Made by a program: the position numbers and the translations under genes. From a virus: a stretch of DNA of 64,000 bases. The notes beneath the pieces are model-generated. The model was not told the origin of the DNA and did not search any database. It worked only from the letters and a program-made list of their open reading frames with translations. Within the stretch, counting starts at the first letter, position 1; each line of letters opens with the position of its first letter. Below are positions 1-60,455 of the stretch, piece after piece. The stretch covers positions 1-64,000 of the IMG/VR virus record IMGVR_UViG_3300046002_001774, one strand, 5' to 3'.

Positions 1-547
1 TATTCTCTAGTTTTGCGTGAATTAAATTCGCTTCGATTTTATCCAGTTTCCCAGATTCGTTAAAAATAGTATCCTCGTTTTTTAACACTCCACCCACATG
101 AAGATCATTGGAAAGTATTGTGTTTATGACGTGAGCGCACATTTCTTTAGTTGTATGAAAAACATATGATGGTTTCCCAGACAAAAGAAGTAATGAACCA
201 GTCCTCTCAACCTCTTCAGCGAGTTGCGGAGTGAATGAAATGTTAGCGACATCATAATCACTCATCCATCCACCACTAGCGGCATGAAGCGCACACCAGC
301 GTGAAAAACGAGCGCAAATGAAAGCAAAATTATTCTGCAACTCGTTGGGGAGAATTGGAGCGAGTCTTGTTAATTTCGTCATTAGTTTCAAGTGGAGCGG
401 ACTCCCCTGCGCGTGTGAGCGATTTAGCATGACTGGTTCCCATCCTTGTGCTTCCCAAGTTGATTTCCATATGTTCGCACAGGCAAATTGCTCGCTTTGT
501 GGGTGCAATTGCACGCTTTCGTAGTATCCGTAGATTTTTGGTTTCAT
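1..547 (-). CDS. GT32-like glycosyltransferase, copy A (3' part beyond window edge)
   Basis: The reading frame runs 182 codons from the ATG at 547 and is still open at base 1. Residues 80-100 read R-x-x-R-W-C-A-L-H-A-A-S-G-G-W-M-S-D-Y-D-V, the sugar-binding DXD signature (D97-Y-D99) of GT32 / Gly_transf_sug enzymes. It is clearly homologous to the gene at 60456-61031, with the same motif at the same residue numbers. Its ATG overlaps the TAA of the GT2-like gene (TAATG), so the pair is translationally coupled. It lies in the capsid block between scaffold and the expected capsid gene, so it may glycosylate a virion or host-surface component; acceptor and donor are unknown. Confidence 0.75.
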   Translation of the reverse strand, partial: MKPKIYGYYESVQLHPQSEQFACANIWKSTWEAQGWEPVMLNRSHAQGSPLHLKLMTKLTRLAPILPNELQNNFAFICARFSRWCALHAASGGWMSDYDVANISFTPQLAEEVERTGSLLLLSGKPSYVFHTTKEMCAHVINTILSNDLHVGGVLKNEDTIFNESGKLDKIEANLIHAKLEN

Positions 548-1542
548 TAGTATGCCTTAATTCCTACATTAAAGACTGGAACACCCAAATCAATGTGAGG
601 TTGATGCCCTGCATCCATTGCTTTTTTACAAAATGAAATATCGTCAGGGTAAAAAGGCCCGTGTTTGATATCAGGGAACTTTTTCTTGATGTCTTGAAAC
701 ACCCGACGATGGATAAGTAAACACCCACTGCCAACCCAGTCAACGGCCTCCACGGAATCTGTGCAGATCCTTGCTTTTTTGCCTAAATCGGTTTTTGAAC
801 AGTCGATTGACGCATCATTTAAGTTAGCGAAGTACGCTGCACCCACTAGTGACTTTCCTGCACCGACTAAACGATGCACGATGTGCTTCTGTAGGTGCGA
901 ATCGTGGATATTTCGAGCAGCACCAATTGTTGCCTTGGCCCATTGCGGTCTACCAATGGATGGGATGATATTATTGTCCAGCAAGAGCAACCATTTTGCG
1001 TCCGTGGCTAGGAATTTCTCTGCAAGGTCATTCCGTGACTTGTAGAAGTTGTTTTCGTCGCTAGAAACGTCAAATCGGATTTTATCACGTCCAAAATCAA
1101 GCGCAATGTGGATTAAAGCGAGTGCAGTGATCGGATTTGTGGCTTTATTAGCCGAAAAACCAACGAAAATGTCCCTTCCTGCGAACTCTGCACGATACGA
1201 TGGCAACCCTTCATTAGTTCGGGATTCTACAATATTTGACTGTAGAGTATCGTTAAATTGTACTTTTTCGGTAACTTCTTCGATAATTGGTTGTTTAATT
1301 TCCTCTGGAGTTGGTAATTCCATCTTTTCTAGCACCTTTGGAACTGGTTTACGTCTGCGTTTAGGTTTTCGGTCTAATTTGATCATAGGTTCGTCGAGAT
1401 GTGAAAAATCTCTTGGTTGTTTATTTATTTCTGGTTGCTGTTGTGGTTGTTGACGCTGAACTTGTCCTTGTCTAGCAAATGGATCGAAAGAATCCAATGC
1501 GTTCATAGTTATCTTCTCATCAGGAGTAACTTTTGGTTCCAT
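547..1542 (-). CDS. GT2-like glycosyltransferase, copy A (altered DXD)
   Basis: 331 aa. Residues 1-110 are charged and proline-rich, likely disordered; residues 112-331 form a GT-A-like domain homologous to the gene at 61032-62165 (shared GLPSYR-EFAGRDIFVGF and DFGRDKIRFD blocks). The metal-binding motif in copy B is D-D-D (LLMIDDDIIPS); here residues 189-191 read D-N-N, so the third acidic position is lost. Both copies keep a VDW-G-GCLLIHR motif and a C-terminal D-x-SFCK-A--AGH block typical of the acceptor half of GT2 enzymes. Activity in this copy is doubtful. An N-terminal ITMNAL-S-DPFAR-GQV segment is conserved between copies and may be a docking peptide. Confidence 0.7.
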   Translation of the reverse strand: MEPKVTPDEKITMNALDSFDPFARQGQVQRQQPQQQPEINKQPRDFSHLDEPMIKLDRKPKRRRKPVPKVLEKMELPTPEEIKQPIIEEVTEKVQFNDTLQSNIVESRTNEGLPSYRAEFAGRDIFVGFSANKATNPITALALIHIALDFGRDKIRFDVSSDENNFYKSRNDLAEKFLATDAKWLLLLDNNIIPSIGRPQWAKATIGAARNIHDSHLQKHIVHRLVGAGKSLVGAAYFANLNDASIDCSKTDLGKKARICTDSVEAVDWVGSGCLLIHRRVFQDIKKKFPDIKHGPFYPDDISFCKKAMDAGHQPHIDLGVPVFNVGIKAY

Positions 1543-1584
1543 AGATATAATGTGCCTTTAACTATACTAAGATATATATGATTT

Positions 1585-1593
1585 TGTGTATAA
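1585..1593 (-). promoter_or_regulatory. DnaA-box-like 9-mer upstream of the GT2-like gene
   Basis: The minus strand reads TTATACACA, matching the DnaA-box consensus TTATNCACA. It lies in the AT-rich 71-bp gap between the scaffold and GT2-like genes. The equivalent gap in copy B (62189-62197) keeps the same 9-mer inside TTATACACAAAA although surrounding bases differ. A second partial TTATACA lies next to it. It could equally be part of a phage promoter. Confidence 0.3.
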
Positions 1594-1613
1594 CTGTATA
1601 ACTTTAGTATACT

Positions 1614-2870
1614 TTAACCACCTAGTGCCTCATCGAGGCCAATATCAATGGCATCCATCGAGTTCATTTTCAATCTGTCATTGAGGCTGGATTTGATGCT
1701 ATGCTGACCCGTGATGGTCTGCTTGGGCATTTTCCCTGCACCTTTTAGGTTGTTGTTCTCTTCGCGCAAGGACTTCAATTCGGCCATGTATTTAGATTTC
1801 CCCTCCTGCTCAACCCGCAGTTGCTCAGTTAGGACGTGAGAGAACACTGCTGCTGCCGCTACGTTAGCCCGTTCTTGCGCGTTGGTGGGCCACAGAGCAG
1901 AGTTAAATTTTTCGGCAAGGGATTGCACCTGCGCGTTGTGCCGCTGCACCTGCTGTAGCTTTTCTGGGGTTGCATCTTTGGGTGCTTCTGCAAACCTTGC
2001 CCACGGCAACTCTTTTGTAATCGAATCGATGTGTTGGTCGATCTGCTCAACCTCCTTGTGATACCACTGCCCTTTTTCTTGCTCGCGCTGTTCAAGAATT
2101 TGATCTGCATTTTGTGCGGCATTTTCTATCTCTTGCTCTTGCTTTTCTTTAAGATCAACAACGTCAACAAGGCTACGTTTCAAACGCTCAGAATCAGTTA
2201 GCGGCAACTTGTCAATTGCGTTATTCCTCCACCAACTTTGATCAACGGCATCAGGCCCACCCGCTTTTTCAATAGATTCAATGACATCTTCACTCGCTCC
2301 GTTTTTGCGAAGGATGCTATAGATATTTTCTTTGGCAGACTGAATTGGTTGATTGTATTTCGACTGGAACTCTGGATCATTCTTAATATCGAAGATTGCA
2401 CGAAATTTCTTTAATTCATCATAATCATCTGGTGCTTTAAACTCCTGCTGACGTGATTCCATCTCCACAACACGTTGCCGCAGTTGCTCTGCTTCCTCCG
2501 CTTGCTTCTTGTATGTCGATGCCGTCTCTTGCAGTTTTCTCCAGTTGGAGCGATTAACCTCCGAAAGATTGCGAGGCTGTTCGATTGAAGCAATTTCTGG
2601 ATCCAGTTCGACTTCTGGAGCTACGGGTGCTTCTGGAGTTTCTGTAGATTCCGTGGATTCAGCAACCTCTTGCGTTTCTTCAATTGGCTCAATTTCCTCA
2701 GTTTCAGTTGATTCGGGTTCCTCTGCGAACACTGGCTCAACTCCACTCAATGCTGCATCTAGCAATGCATCGATTTGATTTTCAGTTGATTCATCGATTG
2801 GATCAGCGTCCAATGATGGGTTTCCATATCCAGTAACACTGGATTCTACTTTTTCGTTTTCGTTTTCCAT
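1614..2870 (-). CDS. Scaffold-like protein, copy A
   Basis: 418 aa, highly acidic in residues 1-100 (Glu/Thr/Ser-rich), then Gln/Glu/Lys-rich long predicted helices and coiled coil (about 105-170 and 225-390), with a basic-to-acidic C-terminal tail. Homologous throughout to the gene at 62209-63477, including the N-terminal VTG-GNPSL-DPIDE block and the C-terminal R-KMN--DAIDLGLDEA block. Position between portal and capsid genes plus composition fit a head scaffolding protein; no enzymatic motif is visible. The function is inferred from context. The leader is A/T-rich without a Shine-Dalgarno sequence. Confidence 0.65.
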   Translation of the reverse strand: MENENEKVESSVTGYGNPSLDADPIDESTENQIDALLDAALSGVEPVFAEEPESTETEEIEPIEETQEVAESTESTETPEAPVAPEVELDPEIASIEQPRNLSEVNRSNWRKLQETASTYKKQAEEAEQLRQRVVEMESRQQEFKAPDDYDELKKFRAIFDIKNDPEFQSKYNQPIQSAKENIYSILRKNGASEDVIESIEKAGGPDAVDQSWWRNNAIDKLPLTDSERLKRSLVDVVDLKEKQEQEIENAAQNADQILEQREQEKGQWYHKEVEQIDQHIDSITKELPWARFAEAPKDATPEKLQQVQRHNAQVQSLAEKFNSALWPTNAQERANVAAAAVFSHVLTEQLRVEQEGKSKYMAELKSLREENNNLKGAGKMPKQTITGQHSIKSSLNDRLKMNSMDAIDIGLDEALGG

Positions 2871-2967
2871 AGATTTATTAATTGGTTGTTAATTTACTTC
2901 ATCGACTTTTCACCACGGCACTTCCATTTTTTTCGTGAAAGATCGTTAATACTACCTGCTTTTTCCG

Positions 2968-3207
2968 TCACATGGACGTGAAATTTCCTGCGCTTGGATC
3001 AGCGTTATCATTTGATGAGTTTACACAATCTTCGATTTCTCGCAATGCCATTTCAAAACCTTGCTTCAACATTGCTTGCATTGCAACTCCTTCGACGGAA
3101 CATTCCGTTATGAAGGGAATTCGACTGCGTAAATATAAACGCAATCGATTTCCTGTTTTCTTGTCGTAGTCACGAAGACGTGATGCGTCAGATTCTTCCC
3201 ATTTCAT
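2968..3207 (-). CDS. Conserved small protein of the capsid block, copy A
   Basis: 79 aa. The C-terminal 60 residues match the partial gene at the right edge (63822-64000): shared YLRSRIP / YYRSRIP, VA-QA--K-GFE-A-RE and the terminal hexapeptide GNFTSM. The exact C-terminal match suggests a functional tail. No known family recognised. It sits between the 111-aa gene and scaffold, so a head-assembly role is possible. The start codon follows an A/T-rich leader (AATAAATAAATATG) with no Shine-Dalgarno sequence. Confidence 0.7.
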   Translation of the reverse strand: MKWEESDASRLRDYDKKTGNRLRLYLRSRIPFITECSVEGVAMQAMLKQGFEMALREIEDCVNSSNDNADPSAGNFTSM

Positions 3208-3226
3208 ATTTATTTATTAATATATT

Positions 3227-3562
3227 TTATTCCATCATCGACTTAACTTTAGATTTAACTTTGCGGTAAACCTTTTTGCCAGCGGCAACAAGTTCCTCTG
3301 GGGAAACGATGCCTTGGTCGCTCATGCCCTGTTTTTTAATGCGATCATAATTTGCTTTTTCTTTTGAGGCATATTCTGCTTTCTTTTCCATTTCCATTTC
3401 GGATTCGGAAAGAAGATCTTCAACTTCCATTTCTTTGTCTTTTGGAGTTGGAAGAGGTTCAACTTTTTTCATAAGTTTAACGTCTTTTTCTTTTACTGCG
3501 GACGATGGATCCATTTTTGCTTTGGAAGCAAGTTCGCTAATCATTTTGGCTCGGTCTGGCAT
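3227..3562 (-). CDS. Small charged protein next to portal
   Basis: 111 aa, very Lys/Glu/Met-rich, predicted almost wholly helical or disordered; residues 85-111 are strongly basic (KKVYRKVKSKVKSMME). Lies 7 bp downstream of the portal gene. An AGGA stretch precedes the start. No family recognised; position suggests a head-assembly accessory or protease-less prohead component. Confidence 0.6.
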   Translation of the reverse strand: MPDRAKMISELASKAKMDPSSAVKEKDVKLMKKVEPLPTPKDKEMEVEDLLSESEMEMEKKAEYASKEKANYDRIKKQGMSDQGIVSPEELVAAGKKVYRKVKSKVKSMME

Positions 3563-3569
3563 AATATTA

Positions 3570-5981
3570 TTATCCTGCGGTTACTGGTTTAGGTGGTGCA
3601 GCAACTTGGTTGACTGCGTTAGTTTGTGAGGGGTTTTGTGTTCCAACGGCTTCTCCCATTGCGGTAGCCTGTGCAGTTGATGGTCTACGTCCACCTCCTC
3701 CACCTCCACCACCTGCTGCTGCTGGAAATAAATCTCCCTCGGAAATTGGTGCTTGTCCTGCTGTCAGGTAATTAATCGCTTCAGAGACTGCCTTTTTGTA
3801 TTCGGCAATCTGCTTTTTGTCTGCACCCTTTGCTTCAGCGTTCTGGACGTGTGCGATAAAGTGCTGAACTGCCGATTGTAGGGGTTTAACCATCTCTGGA
3901 GGCATAGACCCTGCTGGAGCGGAAGAAATAAGCGGGAATAGCTTCTCCATGATGGTCTGGATGTGCATGATGTCATTGTCCCGTGGAGAGACTGGAATGT
4001 CCTCACCTGAGATAATGCTCTGAAGTTCGATGATTTGTTGCCTTGTTGCCTCAATTGCCACTGCTTCGACCTGATCTTTAGGTAAGATGACTTGGTTAGC
4101 GATGGATTCACCCACTTTGCGTGACCAATCGAGCTTCATCAACTCATCTTGGTTGATTTGTGGGTTTCCAGTGTACCTTTGGATCAGAAGATCAAGAATT
4201 GCAGCGTCTTGACCCTCGGTTTGTGGCAGAAGTTCCTCTGCTGGTGAGAATGCCATCAATAAAATGTCGCTAGGAGGTAAATTGCGCTCCAACATGGACA
4301 AAACGCAAGAAACTGCCTCTTCATCGAGATGCCGTGGGATCTCAAATGGCACTAAGAACGATGGGATCTCGGATTGTGCCTGTTCAAATGCCTCAACAAC
4401 CTCTTTTTTGGCCCACATTGCGTTTTGATTCTGTAAACGAGCGAAATCAATCTGTGTTTTTAGTTCAGATGCGGCTTTGACGTGTTCAGGGTGACAGATT
4501 CCACGCTGCATACGCTCAACTGCCTTAGAATATTGCTTTACCCAACGCATTAGGATGCCTTCGCGGATCTGGTTCTCAACGGCAGCAATGCGATTAACCT
4601 CGGATGCAGTTTTATCTCCACCCGTGATGTTCATCACACTGCTTGGAAGGAAGGTTCCCATCTGAATCTCGGCCAATCCACTCATGAATTGATCGAGTTT
4701 AATGAAATCTTCAACGTCAGCGGGGATTGCAGACTGCACTACGTCATATCCCTCTGCCACATATGCTACGGGATGCATTACTTGAAGTGGTGGTATGCCA
4801 GTTTTAGCCGTTGGGCCTTTTTTCAGTAATAGCATCCCGCGCAAATATGAGTTATCGACAATGAGATTTCTCGCTTTTTCGATAGCAATATGCGTGTTAT
4901 ACAAGTCACGTCCTGCTCCACGGGAGGACATCAATGCACCAGACCCAATCTCGATAGAGAATAGCGCGATTGTATCCGACATTCTGTTGTATCTATCCAA
5001 TTGAGTACAGATTTCATCACCACTCTTGTCATCAAAAAGATAGCGCGAAATCTTGCCAGTGGGTTCTTTAATGAGCAATTCACCTAGCTCAACGTATTTT
5101 GCATCGTTTTCGTAGCTTGCACCATAGGATCCTTCTCTCGTCCAGTCCTCATAGCGTCGAGCGTCATCGTCAGAATCCAATGTGCGTCCAGCGGGGGTTG
5201 CGTTGTTGATTGCTTTTACCAAGTTGTTAATATGCCAACCTGCAAGCGCGGAAAGTCTTGGTTGCTCCAACACTGGAAGCAATTCAGCGATCTGGTATCG
5301 ACGCTTCCTAGCCCAAATCGGTGTTGAATCCGCTTCTTGCGGAGTCTCGATTGAGAAGAACGTGTAATCTTGACGAAGGAACTCTGGTTTCCAGTCACGA
5401 ACGTCATCCCAGCAAACCGCACAAAAGCCAAAGGTCGTATTCTCATGCGTTACCTGAGCAACTAGGTCATCGTGACCCTTCCAGCCTCTGATGCATTTTG
5501 TGATCTCTTCGCGGAACACTTTAGTTTTATGTTCCTCGCTCACTCCCTCTAGTGGATATTTGGAATAGGTAAGTGTAGGTGACTGCTCGATTACTTGTTT
5601 AAATGGTGGTTGTAAACGACTAACCATCGTAGACAGAAACCCAGTTGGACGATTACTCCTCCAATTCTGACCCATGCTTTCCAGTTTTTTCGCACTGTAT
5701 GGAGGTTCATTATTTAGTTTCTTCTGAATTAATTGGTTTTTGCGGTTTCTCTCAGTATTCTGTTGTTTGAGTCTGCGATATGCAGAATGCGCTTGCTGGC
5801 AGTCTTTAAATGTCCGCTTAACCTGCAATGTGTCAGGGTTTACAACGTCACCAGTAGCGTTATCATCAACAATCTCCAGTTGGGAAACACGTTGCTTGTC
5901 CGATGGTTTCATAATCCGCGCAGCTTTCGATGCGTAGACGTTTGTGACTTCTGCTGGAATTGGTTTGGTTGTATCGGCCAT
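3570..5981 (-). CDS. Portal (head-to-tail connector) protein
   Basis: 803 aa, the length range of podovirus-type connectors. Mixed alpha/beta body with a long helical segment around residues 470-640 (TASEVNRIAAVENQIREG... region typical of portal stem and wing helices) and a low-complexity C-terminus with eight consecutive glycines near residue 755. It lies directly downstream of the large terminase and a small Cys-rich gene and upstream of scaffold, the classic place for a portal. Assignment rests on size, order and composition; there is no short diagnostic motif. It forms the dodecameric DNA entry ring at one capsid vertex. Confidence 0.75.
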   Translation of the reverse strand: MADTTKPIPAEVTNVYASKAARIMKPSDKQRVSQLEIVDDNATGDVVNPDTLQVKRTFKDCQQAHSAYRRLKQQNTERNRKNQLIQKKLNNEPPYSAKKLESMGQNWRSNRPTGFLSTMVSRLQPPFKQVIEQSPTLTYSKYPLEGVSEEHKTKVFREEITKCIRGWKGHDDLVAQVTHENTTFGFCAVCWDDVRDWKPEFLRQDYTFFSIETPQEADSTPIWARKRRYQIAELLPVLEQPRLSALAGWHINNLVKAINNATPAGRTLDSDDDARRYEDWTREGSYGASYENDAKYVELGELLIKEPTGKISRYLFDDKSGDEICTQLDRYNRMSDTIALFSIEIGSGALMSSRGAGRDLYNTHIAIEKARNLIVDNSYLRGMLLLKKGPTAKTGIPPLQVMHPVAYVAEGYDVVQSAIPADVEDFIKLDQFMSGLAEIQMGTFLPSSVMNITGGDKTASEVNRIAAVENQIREGILMRWVKQYSKAVERMQRGICHPEHVKAASELKTQIDFARLQNQNAMWAKKEVVEAFEQAQSEIPSFLVPFEIPRHLDEEAVSCVLSMLERNLPPSDILLMAFSPAEELLPQTEGQDAAILDLLIQRYTGNPQINQDELMKLDWSRKVGESIANQVILPKDQVEAVAIEATRQQIIELQSIISGEDIPVSPRDNDIMHIQTIMEKLFPLISSAPAGSMPPEMVKPLQSAVQHFIAHVQNAEAKGADKKQIAEYKKAVSEAINYLTAGQAPISEGDLFPAAAGGGGGGGGRRPSTAQATAMGEAVGTQNPSQTNAVNQVAAPPKPVTAG

Positions 5982-5982
5982 A

Positions 5983-6564
5983 TTATTTTAGATTTAGCCA
6001 GCAATCTACTGGCAAATTGTCTGAGGGGGAAATGCTGTCTCTGGACATGAAAACTGCGGATTTATTGTCGTGACGCAGCAACAAGCAACCACCTAGTGCC
6101 TTGGATGTCTTGGTTTCTTTAGCTTGTCTAATGCTTGCACTTAATCTTTCCGTTGCTTTCACGCAAGCACCACAACCGCTTTTCCACTGCACGTTTTGTT
6201 TGCAAGCAAGACAGATCTTTGCGCGTTGCTCTGCTAGCTCGCTGGATATAAGTGCAATCTCTTTTGTAGAATTGATAACATTCTTAGCCCAGATTGTAAT
6301 GTCATTTAACAACTCCGTCTTCTGACTAGGGGTATTCACGGATGTTACAACAACCATGTCTACACCATGACAGAAATTGGGGTTCTTGCTACAGATGTAC
6401 GAATTGACATCACCTTCCACGTCACCAACTGGCAAATGGTTTTCGGCACGGAAATTCGTGACAACCTGAAGAAGATTGTCATAGCTATGACCAGTGAGTT
6501 TTGCATCACCATCGTAGTAATGCCAACCCCCCGGTGGAATCATTCCAATTATCGGTTTTGCCAT
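5983..6564 (-). CDS. Cys-rich zinc-ribbon-like protein between terminase and portal
   Basis: 193 aa. Residues around 115-140 carry C-L-A-C followed nine residues later by C-G-A-C, a CxxC...CxxC zinc-ribbon pattern preceded by an AEQRAKIC helix. A similar arrangement (helix-x-R-x-x-C-N-Q-C ... C-G-V-C) occurs in the 81-aa protein at 9313-9558, suggesting related metal-binding modules. Ends 1 bp before the portal start. No named family recognised; may be a DNA- or protein-binding packaging accessory. Confidence 0.6.
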   Translation of the reverse strand: MAKPIIGMIPPGGWHYYDGDAKLTGHSYDNLLQVVTNFRAENHLPVGDVEGDVNSYICSKNPNFCHGVDMVVVTSVNTPSQKTELLNDITIWAKNVINSTKEIALISSELAEQRAKICLACKQNVQWKSGCGACVKATERLSASIRQAKETKTSKALGGCLLLRHDNKSAVFMSRDSISPSDNLPVDCWLNLK

Positions 6565-6627
6565 GAATTTTTGAGTTTTACGTCAGATTTTTAATGTTTG
6601 CAAGCAAATTCTTACTTATTTATCAAA

Positions 6628-8490
6628 TTAATTGCTGAAATCAACGAATTCGTAACTTTCAATTCCAGTATGTTTTTTCTGGAAAACAAACTTTTCTGGT
6701 TTTGGATCGGTCATCGTGGCAACAACTCCACCCCGTTGTCTCATAAGATAGACCAGCAGGGACAGGGAATCGAGTGCGTCAGGACTATTTTGACGAGTCC
6801 GTTTAACGAAGTCACCTTTGCTCTCGACTCGTACAAGTCCCTGTCCCTGCTGTTTATACCTGCGCGAAGTCGCTTGTCGAACCAACTCCTCGGTACGGAA
6901 ACTCGGTGAGATTTTCAGATACTCAAACTCTAGGTATTTAGCAAGCCCAAAAATCAGTTCTGTAACAACTCCAGAATACAATTCGTTTGCGCGTTGTGTG
7001 TCATCTCCCAAGATGTGAGTTTCTGAACTAGCCCACGAATAGTTTACCCCCATCACTTCGCTTCCGTATAGTGACCTCAGTGCATCGTGGATTCCTGCTC
7101 CGTTTCCAGTTCTATCCACACACAACCAGTTCGCTCCGATTCTCATTTCCTTTGCGAAGCGGATGATCTCTGCGGTCTGTTCCAATGTCGCTAGTTTCGG
7201 GAACTGCATTTGTGAATCCAACTGCAAACACGTCTTGGGCTTTTTGAATTCGCGGAATTGTCCGTCCCTCGGAGTCCACCCATCGCAGAGTCCGTATCGT
7301 CCGAATGAACAGACAACTTGATCTCGACCTTCCAATGCCAAATCGAACGCTGCTAGTGGCACTACAGGCCCAATAAACCGCAAGCTACCCATTGAGTTGT
7401 CCATCATGGCAGGTGTAATAATTGCCATCGAGATGCCCTCCTGTGGGAAGAAACCTCTTGCCATTGTGTAATATTCGGCAGTGCGTCCCTTGGATTCGTA
7501 TGCCATGTAGCCCTCGTACGATTGGAAGCCGGGGAACACAATCTCCTTCTCCAGCACGTTCTCGCACCTTGCTGCATCCAATCGCAATATATGCCAACCC
7601 TCCCTGCTGTCCCACTCGAAATCTTCCTCACAATCCACACTCTGCCAACCCCGCGCAGGTTCGCACCTCTTACCAAACTCACTATTTCTATCCTTCGGGT
7701 TCGATGCTCCGAAAATTTTGATGCGTCCCTTGGAATCCTTCGTATCGGCAGCAGACAGGATGTTTTGTAGACCTTCCCACACCCCAGCGGGAACTTCTTC
7801 AGCTTCGTCTAGGACAACGTGCGTCCTACTCATTTGACCCCACTTGGGATCTGGCTTTTGTCTTGGAGATGGGTGGAATCCGCGCAAAGTACCAGTTCCG
7901 CTATCGCCTTTCGGAACGGCAACTAGGTGGATCCCATTCTTGTCATCGTCATTGGCTTGAATTGACTTCACAAGATCTTCGCTACCTTCGTACTCTGGTC
8001 TAACCAATGCAGTCCTGTAGAAGTTTTTGATTGCAGCGAATACGTTTCTCTGCGCGTGTGCCTCAGTAAGCGAAACTACTTTAATACAAGTGTATTCTGG
8101 ATCTCGCATCCAATCCAACAAGAACCACGCAGCGGCATTGAACGTCTTGCCCATTGCACCTGCACCTTGAACTAGCAATTTGTCATTTTCAAACAAGCAC
8201 CTCCAAGTATCCGCTGCACTCTGTGGCCTCCAATCGTAAACTCCACTACCCCACAAGATTGTTGCTGCCGCTTCAAACTGATCGTGCTTCAACAGGTGCT
8301 GAACGAAGTTTAACACAGTCTGCTTAGCCACCTTTTCGTCCAGTGTAACCTGCTTTTTCTGCGAATTCGTGAGATTTGTCAGTATAAACTGAGCGGCATA
8401 GATGACTCCGTTGATATCATCTTTCTCCGCTTCCGCTCGCACCCTTGTAGCAATGTTAATTGCCTGTAAAACTGACGGGGGTTTATTCAT
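6628..8490 (-). CDS. terL: Terminase large subunit (packaging ATPase-nuclease)
   Basis: 620 aa. N-terminal ATPase: Walker A GAGAMGKT (residues 109-116), Walker B VVLDEAEE (225-232) with catalytic Glu, and a coupling-motif-like SNP (about 263-265). C-terminal RNase H-like nuclease: acidic residues in AAFDLALEG (D383), WLCVDRTGNGAG (D459) and SPDALDSLSLL (D571). Order and spacing are those of full-length TerL. It drives DNA into the prohead through the portal and cuts the concatemer. The start overlaps the 84-aa upstream gene by 8 bp. TerS lies 5 kb upstream rather than adjacent. Confidence 0.95.
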   Translation of the reverse strand: MNKPPSVLQAINIATRVRAEAEKDDINGVIYAAQFILTNLTNSQKKQVTLDEKVAKQTVLNFVQHLLKHDQFEAAATILWGSGVYDWRPQSAADTWRCLFENDKLLVQGAGAMGKTFNAAAWFLLDWMRDPEYTCIKVVSLTEAHAQRNVFAAIKNFYRTALVRPEYEGSEDLVKSIQANDDDKNGIHLVAVPKGDSGTGTLRGFHPSPRQKPDPKWGQMSRTHVVLDEAEEVPAGVWEGLQNILSAADTKDSKGRIKIFGASNPKDRNSEFGKRCEPARGWQSVDCEEDFEWDSREGWHILRLDAARCENVLEKEIVFPGFQSYEGYMAYESKGRTAEYYTMARGFFPQEGISMAIITPAMMDNSMGSLRFIGPVVPLAAFDLALEGRDQVVCSFGRYGLCDGWTPRDGQFREFKKPKTCLQLDSQMQFPKLATLEQTAEIIRFAKEMRIGANWLCVDRTGNGAGIHDALRSLYGSEVMGVNYSWASSETHILGDDTQRANELYSGVVTELIFGLAKYLEFEYLKISPSFRTEELVRQATSRRYKQQGQGLVRVESKGDFVKRTRQNSPDALDSLSLLVYLMRQRGGVVATMTDPKPEKFVFQKKHTGIESYEFVDFSN

Positions 8491-49904: not shown

Positions 49905-51809
49905 TCATACCACTGTCCACACGCTTCCAGAAGGCACTGTTACTGTAACTCCACTAGCTACTGTTACTGGGCCAAATGTTCCTGCGTTTTTAGATACTGG
50001 AATGCTGTAAGATGTATTTACTGTTAGATCGTTAAGAAAGAAGATAGCGTCTGTTCCTGCGCCAGTTGCACCACCCGGTGATCCACTTGCCCCAGTCGCG
50101 CCAGTTGCACCTACTCCAGTCGCGCCAGTCGCACCCGTTGCGCCTGTGCTACCTTGATTTCCTTGAATGCCAGTAGACCCTGTGCTTCCCTGCGTACCTA
50201 CGCCAGTCGCACCTGTTGAGCCTGTGCTGCCATTAACCCCAGAAACGCCTGTTGCCCCAGTACTGCCCGTGGAACCTTGGCCTCCAGAAACACCAGTGGC
50301 TCCTGTGCTTCCTGTGCTTCCTGTCGATCCTTGAATGCCTTGGATACCTGTTGCACCCGTGCTGCCAGTTGCTCCTGCTGGGCCGGGTGCGCCAGAAAGT
50401 GATACGCTCCAGCTTGAGAATGAACCAGAACCAGTAATTGAAGTAACATTTACAACCAATGCGCCAGTCAAACTATTATAACTAGTAACTGTCCCTTCCA
50501 TTTTATTGGAAGAACTATTAGCTATAATAACAGATTGACCAATACTCAACGCAAGTCCAGTGCCAACTGTTAAAGATTGTGTCCCTAATGCAATTGTTAA
50601 TGGAGTGGAAGAAGATGTTGTATATTTATCTCCAGCAGTGCCTGTTGCGCCCGTGCTGCCAGTTGTGCCTTGGATTCCAGTCGCACCTGTGCTTCCAGTT
50701 GAGCCATTTGATCCAGCAGTTCCAGTCGCACCTGTGGAGCCTTGACCACCAGTTAATCCTGTGGCTCCAGTGCTTCCCGTTGAACCATTTGATCCAGCAA
50801 CGCCAGTTGCGCCAGTGCTGCCATTAACTCCAGAAACTCCTGTGGCTCCAGTGCTGCCAGTTGCGCCATTTGCGCCATTTGCGCCAGCAGTTCCTGTGGA
50901 GCCTTGCACACCTTGTACACCAGTTGCGCCCGTGCTTCCTCGCAGTCCAGTTGCCCCAGTTGATCCAGAACCAGTTGCGCCCGTGCCTCCTTGAGTCCCA
51001 GTAATTCCTGTTGCGCCCGTGGAGCCTGTCGAGCCTGTTCCCGTAGCACCAGTCGATCCTGTTAATCCTGTCGAACCATTTGAGCCAGCAACGCCAGTTG
51101 CGCCTGTACTGCCTTGAGTTCCCGCCCCTGTTGCACCCGTGGCTCCTGTTGGGCCTCCAGATGGCCCAGTTGCTCCTTGAACTCCAGTGGCTCCCAGTCC
51201 ACCATCTCCAGATAACGCAATTTGCCAGTCTGAAAATGTTCCAGAACCTTGAGTTTTATCGACATTAATAGTTACAAAATTAGAAGCGACATTTATTGCC
51301 GTTCCTTCAACCCAGTCGTAAGGATACGCTGAATTTGCAACTGCTCGCAACCTAGATCCATATGTCCACCCAATATCAGCGGAAGCATAGTTAAATGTTC
51401 TGATTCCAACTTGAATTGGATGAGATGTAAAACTTTGTCGAGTGATTACTGGAGATATTCCAGTTGCGCCAGTAGATCCAGATCCTGTAGATCCTGTCGA
51501 GCCTTGCACTCCAGTAGAACCCTGAACTCCGCTTGCTCCAGTGGCTCCAGAACCCGTTGCGCCAGTAGAACCCGTCAATCCTTGAGATCCAATGCCTGTT
51601 GCTCCCATCAAACCCGTTGCTCCAGTACCACCCTGTATACCAATACCAGTAGCACCTTGTGGCCCAGTGGCTCCACTAGAACCGATTCCCGTAGCACCTG
51701 TAGCACCAGTGGATCCCACATAAGGCCAATTGCAGTCCATTGAATTTAATGGAGCGCAACCGCAATTTGTAGAGCTTTGTGGGCTTGGAATCCAGTTATA
51801 TTGAGCCAT
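49905..51809 (-). CDS. Long collagen-like fibre protein
   Basis: 634 aa. N-terminal attachment region ([20 protein letters not shown]), then three collagen-like stretches of Gly-X-Y dominated by G-A-T and G-S-T triplets, interrupted by two small beta domains (about residues 120-205 and 395-460), and a C-terminal [12 protein letters not shown] beta tip. Low-complexity DNA produces many spurious opposite-strand frames. The triplet block is prone to length change by slippage. Confidence 0.85.
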
Positions 51810-53925: not shown

Positions 53926-55488
53926 TTATGGGCCAACAATTACATACAACGTGTTGGGGTCTGGAATCACTATTAAATTGTAGCCAGTTTGGGTGATTTC
54001 CACTAGATTTGTCAGTTGCGTTGCCCCTGTAAGACCAGTAATATCCGAGAGAACAATGTTTGCTGGTGTAACCCCTGTGGCTCCTGTGGCTCCGATCCCT
54101 GTAGCACCTGTCGCTCCCGTGGCTCCTTGAGTTGCTGGCGATAGAGAACTAACAACTTGAGCAATATGACTATCCTCAAAATGCATTGTCATTGTTTTTC
54201 CTCCAAGATCAATGGCATAAAACTTAACAACAATCCTATCTGTAGCTAAAACATTTGTTGCAGGAACTGGAATGCTCCACAAATACAATTCGTTGACAGT
54301 TCCATCTGTGATTGGATGCGGATTAACAACATTTGTTGCAATTAGCGTTTCTGTTCCAGCAAGATTTCGATAATAAATCTCACCATAAATTTTTGGTGTT
54401 CCTCCATTGGAACTCATCGAAACAAAATTTTCAAAATTCCAATTTCCTGCTGTAATTGTAGTAACATTAGGATCACTTGAAATTGTTGCAAATGATCCAA
54501 CTAATTGCGCTCCTGCACCAGAAGCAGTAAGTGTTGTTCCGACTCCAATTACCAAATCACGATTCATTTCATAATATCCAAGGATATCTGATGAATCGGA
54601 AGGATTAAAATAATATGCTGCACCAGAACTAAATCCTTGCGGGCCTTGAATTCCAGTTGCGCCCGTTGCTCCGTTACTTCCAGCAACGCCAGTTGCACCT
54701 GTAGAACCTTGTCCTCCAGCAATGCCAGTCGCGCCGACTTCTCCTTGGATGCCAGTAGCACCAGTTGCGCCATCCAAACCATTCAATCCCGTTGCCCCAG
54801 TAGCTCCAGTAGCTCCGTCTGTTCCAGTTACGCCTGTGGCTCCTGTAGAACCATCTAATCCAGTAGCACCAGTGTCACCTGTGGCTCCAGTGGCTCCTCT
54901 AACCCCAGTCAAGCCTGTAGCTCCCGTTGCGCCCGTGGCTCCGAGATCACCCGTTGCTCCAGTCGCTCCAACGTCTCCTTGGATGCCAGTTGCGCCAGTC
55001 GCTCCGACATCCCCTTGAATCCCAGTTGCGCCAGTGGAACCCGTGGCTCCGTCATTTCCAGCAACCCCCGTGGAACCCGTGGCTCCCGTGGCCCCAGTGC
55101 TACCATCCAAACCCGTGCTTCCCGTGGCTCCAGTCGAACCAGTAGCTCCATCTACTCCAGAAATTCCAGTGCTTCCAGTTGCGCCTGTGCTGCCATCAAT
55201 TCCAGCTACCCCAGTAGCCCCTGTAGCTCCAGTGTCTCCTTGGATACCTGTAGCTCCCGTTAAACCACTTGCGCCAGTGTTTCCAGTTGCGCCAGTGGAA
55301 CCCGTGGCTCCGTCATTTCCAGCAACCCCCGTGGCCCCTGTGGTTCCAGCCCCAGTCGCGCCCGTGCTTCCCGTGGCCCCCGTTGGGCCTCCAGATGGGC
55401 CTGTGGCCCCAGTGGCCCCAACTGCTGCGCTGGCTTGACTTCCAGTAAAATCAAGTTTACCAGTAAATGGGTTAAATGTGAGTGCCAT
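53926..55488 (-). CDS. Collagen-like fibre protein with [10 protein letters not shown] head
   Basis: 520 aa. Head motif [17 protein letters not shown], shared with the 58-aa protein at 57915-58091. Residues 22-285 are Gly-X-Y triplets, mostly G-A-T and G-S-T; then a beta domain (300-440) and an end [18 protein letters not shown] similar to the tip of the 195-aa protein. Stalk-plus-tip fibre. The G-A-T codon repeats are highly repetitive DNA. Confidence 0.85.
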
Positions 55489-59625: not shown

Positions 59626-59940
59626 AATATTTGTTTTCTGTTTTGTTTGTTTGTTTAGGTTTGTTCTGCTTGAACCGACCCTTTAGAAGATCTATTGGGC
59701 GACATTCAAGTGTGCGTGAAATCGCATTGCGACTTTGCACAATTTTCTTGTTTGTTCGCCCCGGCACGTTGGGCTTGTTAATACGGCCTGTTTGTGGATT
59801 CTGTGACTTCCACGGAGTCATAGGTATACGGAACCTACCTACCGAAGTGAATTCAGAACTGCGATATATTAACGGATATGTCAACAAAAAACATTCCATT
59901 ACATATAAAAAATAATTGTGTAACGATGAAAAAAACATTT
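59626..59940 (-). promoter_or_regulatory. Leader of the capsid gene
   Basis: Gene-free 315 bp. Contains a hairpin TGACT-N7-AGTCA (59804-59820), a tight palindrome TCGCA-T-TGCGA (59722-59732) and an A-rich 5' UTR end (AACAAACCTAAACAAACAAA). A TTGACA is present on the minus strand near 59878 but I find no well-spaced -10. Probably holds the capsid promoter or is the 3' continuation of the structured region upstream. Confidence 0.4.
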
Positions 59941-60455
59941 GACGGAATAAATGAATGTGATAGTTTCAATTCATCTTACTTGAATCTATGCAGGATTCTA
60001 GCGGATATAAAATTTTGCTTTGAGTGAAATACCCGTTCTGATGCTGCATACATCAAGGCGGGTTTTTCCTTTTGTATGAAGCCTCACGGCAGTTCCCGAA
60101 AGTAGCCTGTTGATACTATATCGGTGAGTGAAATATGACCGAGAACTTGGATGGCAAACTTTGATTGAGCTTTCCAATAACGCACATGACTGGAATGATG
60201 AAACCATGCCAACCAGTCGTTATTTTGGTAATGAAATCTGTTTCGTGACCAAATTAAAATACACGCCACAGAAATGTGGGCGAAGGTGCTATTGAGGGTG
60301 TATGTTGAGTGTTGGTGCGGCCCGATAAAGACAATAGCATTTAATGTCGAAAGCTAGACTGCCGATTCCTATACGGAAGGTAATTTACAAGACACTTCAT
60401 CTCCATAACAGGCGAAGTGTCTCTGCTGCCAACCTTAAGCCTTCCAGAAGATAAC
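59941..60455. ncRNA. Candidate large structured RNA upstream of the capsid gene
   Basis: The only long gene-free stretch in the window (830 bp with its neighbour). Perfect or near-perfect stems: AGACACTTC / GAAGTGTCT (60390-60422, 9 bp), CGCCACA-GAAA-TGTGGGCG (60264-60282, one bulge, GNRA loop on plus strand), GACTGG / CCAGTC (60188-60218), TCGGT / ACCGA (60121-60142), and ACCCG..TGATG / CATCA..CGGGT (60031-60063). Small frames here look spurious. Size and density of hairpins recall ornate phage RNAs such as ROOL or GOLLD, but I cannot match their consensus. Strand undecided. Confidence 0.4.
60031..60074 (+). terminator. Plus-strand intrinsic-terminator-like hairpin
   Basis: ACCCGTTCTGATG - CTGCATA - CATCAAGGCGGGT followed by TTTTCCTTTTG. 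ACCCG/CGGGT and TGATG/CATCA pair, with G-U pairs between. The U-run is on the plus strand only, although every gene is on the minus strand, so it implies a plus-strand RNA ending here or is one stem of the structured region. Confidence 0.45.

Follow-up and report, generated by a model that had tools for sequence, protein, structure and literature searches.

Two divergent predicted transcription units with three structured-RNA modules in the gap upstream of a putative phage capsid gene

We asked what is carried by an 830 bp stretch (positions 59626–60455) that separates a putative major capsid gene from its neighbor in an uncultured virus genome. The "window" is the whole 64,000-nucleotide stretch analyzed, part of the 71,431 bp IMG/VR record IMGVR_UViG_3300046002_001774; the gap runs exactly from the capsid ATG (59625, minus strand) to the stop codon of a 191-aa gene (60456, minus strand). 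An earlier note, made from the letters alone, described this stretch as hairpin-dense and gene-free and proposed a single ornate noncoding RNA. The description held: both strands of the gap folded better than 20 dinucleotide shuffles (z −3.6 for the minus and −4.0 for the plus strand). A protein-coding reading was rejected, as no frame was conserved; frames of 60 aa or more did not recur in the gaps of the closest relatives, and across homologues of module A (below) the longest ATG-started frames ranged from 18 to 126 aa without agreement. The remark that this genome has almost no intergenic DNA was only roughly right, since other gaps between large genes exist in the window, some containing small ORFs. 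Comparison of about 100 related virus contigs revealed, as read from sequence, that the gap is occupied by two divergent, back-to-back transcription units rather than by a single element, and that these contain three new structured-RNA modules, B, S and A (Table 1), none of them an Rfam family. The note was therefore right as to the kind of element, with strong covariation among homologues and no intact protein frame in them, and wrong in counting one element in place of two divergent units.

A search with the 398-aa protein matched 164 virus contigs, of which 80 were fetched (85–100% identity). About twenty of the fetched relatives have a homologous gap, and most of the others retain at least its last ~200 bp. 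The protein, named as capsid in the earlier note, had no Pfam or PHROG match; an AlphaFold model built with distant homologues (mean pLDDT 42) nevertheless came closest, among PDB structures, to phage capsids of the HK97 fold (best E 2.5e-3), so that an HK97-fold capsid is a low-confidence assignment. The model from the first alignment, without the distant relatives, was unusable. While the capsid is 85–100% identical across these phages, the flanking genes, including the two upstream, are often only about 45% identical; this represents either unusually strong constraint on the capsid or a recent sweep. Among phage isolates the capsid had no match, one large protein matched weakly, the DnaB matches were distant, and the gap had no match at the DNA level; scans of 85,000 species genomes with a capsid profile and an HT pattern (terminator hairpin, below) returned nothing. 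Homology over about 10 kb links one end of the record to the other (window 1–8400 and record 60600–71000) at only ~69% DNA identity, which may mean either that a ~61 kb circular genome wraps on, as a chimera, into another strain or that a head module has been duplicated. The record may thus be chimeric, but the same arrangement of the gap was present in independent contigs.

Table 1. Positions of the features assigned in and next to the gap (window coordinates).
Feature	Position	Strand	Basis or remark
Putative major capsid protein gene, 398 aa	58429..59625	minus	85–100% identical in relatives; structural matches to HK97 fold, low-confidence model
Capsid leader, 3' part: hairpin CTTGAA..CCC/GGG..TTCAAG (about 59669–59713), then A/C-rich	59626..59748	minus	Kept in most capsid-lineage loci
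Module B core: hairpin P1 and two H-type pseudoknots (PK1, PK2)	59749..59849	minus	46-sequence alignment A5; model R1 97.5 bits
Candidate −35 (TTGACA) of presumed capsid-operon promoter	59879..59884	minus	TTGAC in all aligned homologues; function presumed
Predicted promoter of plus-strand RNA, TTGACG-16-TAGTTT	59939..59966	plus	Sequence conservation
Module S: leader with two hairpins having mutually complementary loops	59970..60066	plus	Model R2 75.4 bits; covariation on alignment A2
Hairpin H2, loop UAUGCAG (59987–59993)	59981..59999	plus	
Terminator hairpin HT: stem-loop 60032–60062, loop CUGCAUA (60044–60050), U-run 60063–60067	60032..60067	plus	
Module A, type I: ~390-nt structured RNA in exchangeable slot	60067..60455	plus	17-sequence alignment A3
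GNRA-capped hairpin in A, GCCACAGAAAUGUGGGC, with CCACA-GAAA-UGUGG at about 60267–60280	60265..60281	plus	Covarying stem

The earlier note found the placement directly upstream of the capsid gene suggestive. This applies to the shorter minus-strand leader B and not to A, which runs away from the capsid gene on the plus strand; only about 250 bp of the gap would belong to the capsid transcript. The presumed promoter of the capsid operon shows no clear sigma-70 −10 sequence behind its candidate −35. Within the B core, hairpin P1 bears a UCCGUAU-like loop, and beyond the core an A/C-rich unstructured stretch without a Shine-Dalgarno sequence runs up to the capsid ATG. An SD-like motif precedes only 6 of the 43 large genes in the window, and their upstream regions are A/T-rich, which may point to a host, perhaps one of the Bacteroidota, that initiates translation independently of an SD sequence.

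Support for the B structure came from 46 divergent leaders, in which 26 pairs were assigned, 21 of them with changes on both sides, and 92% of cells were paired. Double-change cells numbered 285 compared with 88 in shuffled alignments (covariation score 0.60 versus 0.20), although the shuffles used here and below ignore phylogeny, so that all such counts overstate the number of independent events. Sliding the partners by one column destroyed the covariation, and at the pre-specified pairs G-U exceeded A-C on the capsid strand by 27 to 9. The interleaved helices of PK1 and PK2 both covary, as expected of H-type pseudoknots. With model R1, B was recovered from all capsid-lineage records tested, also where an extra gene stands ahead of the capsid gene, and from 0 of 5 second-lineage records tested (this lineage is described below). 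Because B in locus L035 stands before a 320-aa gene that in turn precedes the capsid gene, B heads the operon and is not tied to the capsid gene alone. This distribution suggests that capsid expression is controlled at the RNA level in an uncultured group of freshwater phages, and B would most likely act on translation or stability of the capsid message. The translational operator of T4 gene 32 is likewise a pseudoknotted phage leader. B resembles it in having an H-type pseudoknot in a phage mRNA leader, but differs in comprising a hairpin and two tandem pseudoknots, in standing before a capsid operon, and in having no known ligand.

Two further observations concern this leader. In several loci the interval between B and the capsid gene holds a gene for a 250–330-aa protein of the FGE-sulfatase/C-type-lectin fold (L035:2980–3942; PF03781, E 1e-24), also found in L040, L043, L045, L053, L058, L060, L066, L068 and L011; its variable positions lie near the C-terminus, as in targets of diversity-generating retroelements, and no template repeat was found near the gene in L035. 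A motif, UUCCGUAU / UCGUAU, is shared by the P1 loop of leader B and the complementary strand of module A, and its recurrence may be due to chance or to a common protein site.

The predicted promoter of the plus-strand unit stands back to back with that presumed for the capsid operon. It retains TTGAC in all 35 homologues, and in 27 of the 35 TAnnnT follows at a distance of 15–19 nt (1.5% of shuffles). The terminator-like hairpin that the earlier note saw facing the plus strand is HT, followed by TTTTT in the window with a U-run kept in nearly all homologues: HT ends in GGCGGG plus the U-run, at least four Ts directly follow GGCGGG in 34 of 37 distinct matches, and the U-run is retained regardless of what type of payload lies downstream. 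A U.G wobble in the HT stem was invariant in 28 of 28 aligned sequences, and would be a C.A mismatch if the minus strand were read. Module S thereby has the predicted makeup of an attenuator leader, i.e., a promoter, a leader, and a GC hairpin with a U-run before a downstream unit.

H2 and HT carry mutually complementary loops. At least 6 exact complementary nucleotides were found in 33 of 35 phages, and at least 7 in 27, whereas complementarity arose in 8.7% of shuffles and in 7.4% of comparisons between the loops of different phages; the loops thus show the self-specificity of a kissing-loop regulator (33/35 self versus 7.4% cross). All seven kissing pairs (7/7) changed on both sides in alignment A2, with 98.4% paired, and by our own count there were 23 different loop pairs among the 35 phages, which represent candidate orthogonal kissing pairs that are ready-made. 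The same complementarity would equally suit a kissing fold within one molecule that regulates nothing, or a structural contact in a single long S+A RNA. An anti-terminator shared by all S sequences was not found; one formed from the 3' arm of H2 and the 5' arm of HT could be drawn by eye in some sequences, was absent in others, and was rejected as a common element.

S might instead be an independent, trans-acting small RNA of ~95 nt directed against host or competitor transcripts, with A transcribed elsewhere or by rare read-through. S does have its own predicted promoter and terminator, and hypervariable loops are typical of specificity elements; but a foreign target would not require the two loops to match each other, as they do in 33/35 phages, and the stretch from HT to A showed no promoter that could serve A. 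We regard this explanation as improbable.

An attenuator role for S has precedents in phages and plasmids. The P4 CI RNA and the P1 c4 RNA are phage leader RNAs that, by pairing with the transcript they belong to, bring about its early termination or silencing. By analogy, S would be a self-pairing leader whose pairing specificity would set immunity groups; it differs in having no sequence or Rfam match to these RNAs (c4 RNA is listed as RF01695; PMC2864571) and in having as payload either a structured RNA or a gene for an endonuclease. In the countertranscript attenuators of the pT181 type, loop-loop recognition is coupled to termination, with specificity provided by the hairpin sequences (PMC3753616). 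S likewise appears to combine kissing recognition, a transcription terminator and specificity set by its hairpins, and would be regulatory in the same sense; the pT181 antisense RNA, however, is a separate transcript, whereas S has both loops in one.

Behind HT lies module A. In the 17 type I sequences 62 pairs were predicted, 31 of them with both sides changed (104 cells versus 28 in shuffles), and in 12 type II sequences 79 pairs, 15 double-changed (28 cells versus 8); these structures were predicted from the same alignments used for testing, which favors them, though the slid-partner and shuffle controls were far lower. Type II could not be aligned with type I past the first ~50 nt, and a third type was found in L272. 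The GNRA-loop hairpin singled out by the earlier note was confirmed on the plus strand, its loop being GAAA, GAGA or GCGA in most homologues while the stem covaries. Because GNRA loops settle the strand (19 on the plus versus 3 on the minus strand for type I, 22 versus 5 for type II), A is read from the plus strand. The minus-strand reading was discarded: the GNRA loops belong only to the plus strand, HT has U.G and not C.A, and the plus strand folds better. There was no recognizable terminator at the 3' end of A.

The gap could conceivably be conserved as DNA, e.g., as a replication origin, packaging site or recombination hotspot. Its AT-rich center carries inverted GTCAAA/TTTGAC motifs, two records end close to the locus, and modules have been exchanged there, as would fit such a site. 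Against this, the compensatory changes with G-U on one strand, the strand-specific GNRA loops and the pseudoknotted leader are signatures of RNA, and S+A occurs at different loci in two lineages. We consider a DNA element highly improbable; two-sided changes over two lineages together with 23 loop pairs would be hard to account for otherwise than by the RNA modules B, S and A.

The slot after HT is exchangeable. It holds either A, in at least three sequence-unrelated types (I, II and III), or a homing-endonuclease gene. Types I and II are cleanly swapped between flanks that are 97–98% or about 95% identical (L010 compared with L008, and L256 with L263, the latter two being the two ends of one record). 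An HNH endonuclease gene directly after S replaces A in L011 and L105 (PHROG HNH, E 1e-9 to 1e-10); in L088 a GIY-YIG (T5orf172) gene follows S, and behind it sequence similar to the 3' end of type I A is still present. Homing genes of the HNH or NUMOD kind also adjoin A on its 3' side in L257, L265 and L275. S+A without B was also found in a second lineage of 67–69 kb phages (among L256–L275), at a divergent intergenic region before early genes, e.g., for dCMP deaminase or glycosyltransferase. Since A stands before early genes in these phages, it is independent of the capsid. The capsid of the second lineage is 26–28% identical to that of the window, while type II A shares 88% DNA identity between the lineages (L063 versus L263), and hence the cassette moves between distant phages.

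Sharing of the slot with HNH and GIY-YIG genes, and the HNH genes directly 3' of A in L265, L275 and L257, would also suit a decayed mobile element, such as a degenerate group I intron or the remnant of a homing-endonuclease cassette, that is now functionless. However, five short targeted scans gave no Rfam intron match down to E = 10; A lies between genes and not inside one, as a group I or group II intron would; and because compensatory changes maintain its helices in two types and two lineages, A is under selection. Decay is accordingly a very unlikely explanation.

A different possibility is that S and A form one ornate RNA of ~490 nt, with HT a structural hairpin and intra- or intermolecular loop kissing aiding folding or multimerization, as in the ROOL and GOLLD cages. 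Wherever A is present, it lies behind S with a short spacing that is fixed; the RNA would be large, with GNRA loops and modular domains; and the kissing loops of ROOL and GOLLD are structural (PMC12286853). The conserved U-run behind HT speaks against this, as does the absence of an Rfam match to either family. In L011, L088 and L105, S precedes protein genes in place of A, and therefore a joint structural role with A is impossible there. We hold the single-RNA explanation to be a minority prospect, somewhat unlikely on this evidence.

The reading that we prefer, and to which we assign about an even chance on the sequence evidence, is that of two divergent units in which S would act as an attenuator for an exchangeable payload, A would be a folded RNA made by read-through, and B would tune the capsid mRNA. 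Most plus-strand transcripts would stop at HT, giving an RNA of ~95 nt. In the nascent RNA H2 would fold first, and its loop could capture the HT loop before the terminator closes; S RNA that has accumulated could likewise capture, in trans, the HT loop of a nascent S RNA. Loop-loop pairing, whether in cis or in trans, would set the frequency of read-through into A, with specificity coming from the loop sequence. Because each phage's loops match mainly its own, S may represent a self-specific sensor of dosage or superinfection. Homing endonucleases act in competition between co-infecting phages. Since these enzymes occupy the slot in some phages where others have A, and since A moves between lineages, a role in competition is suggested, and the folded read-through RNA would probably act between phages or between phage and host. 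A bolder version of the proposal, which we offer as speculation and think rather unlikely, is that the locus defines a new class of element, with S a phage-specific dosage or superinfection switch, the unrelated RNAs (types I–III) and the homing endonucleases functional alternatives, and the RNAs competition or anti-defense factors.

Comparison with known RNAs placed the modules in none of the named families open to testing, although in parts they behave like known things: loop-loop attenuation, pseudoknotted leaders and large ornate phage RNAs. The whole 64 kb window gave no match to any of 4227 Rfam families at gathering score, OLE and raiA (if present in Rfam 15) included, and permissive targeted scans gave no credible match, and none to ROOL or, on either strand, to GOLLD. 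Membership in ROOL, GOLLD, OLE or raiA, which the earlier note had named as the families to search, was thus not borne out. Membership in tRNA/tmRNA or HEARO families was rejected for lack of a match at the gathering threshold. The literature searched, which excludes most preprints and subscription papers, held no description of these RNAs. GOLLD and ROOL are phage RNAs often found near tRNA islands and contain structural kissing loops (PMC12286853). Like GOLLD, the plus-strand RNA is large, highly structured and phage-borne, with one part conserved, another variable, and kissing-type elements; it differs in length (~390–490 nt versus >800 nt for GOLLD), in lacking an Rfam match, in the window having 0 tRNA genes (one tRNA lies about 3 kb away in L010), and in occupying a slot common to endonuclease genes with a terminator-bearing leader in front. 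ROOL, too, is a large phage-borne RNA that folds intricately and forms kissing contacts, but length, context and fold differ, again without an Rfam match; and whereas the kissing loops of GOLLD and ROOL are structural, the pair described here lies in a separate terminator leader. HEARO and omega RNAs are also structured RNAs adjoining HNH endonuclease genes, but the HNH proteins here are short (175–230 aa) or of the NUMOD homing type and not IscB, there is no Rfam match, and the slot often holds either the RNA or the gene.

Few large structured phage RNAs are known, and the present loci add at least two new families with clear covariation. They also provide a natural genetic context, in which a big RNA alternates with homing-endonuclease genes behind one self-recognizing terminator leader, and function is therefore directly testable by cassette swap or deletion.

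Two minor features of these genomes are recorded here. A short direct repeat (GGAAGnTAT-like) with copies about 75 nt apart occurs at the 3' end of A, e.g., in L015 and L048, and the copies vary in concert between phages. The window also encodes two collagen-repeat tail-fiber proteins, at 49905–51809 (PF01391, E 3e-34) and 53926–55488 (PF01391, E 8e-36).
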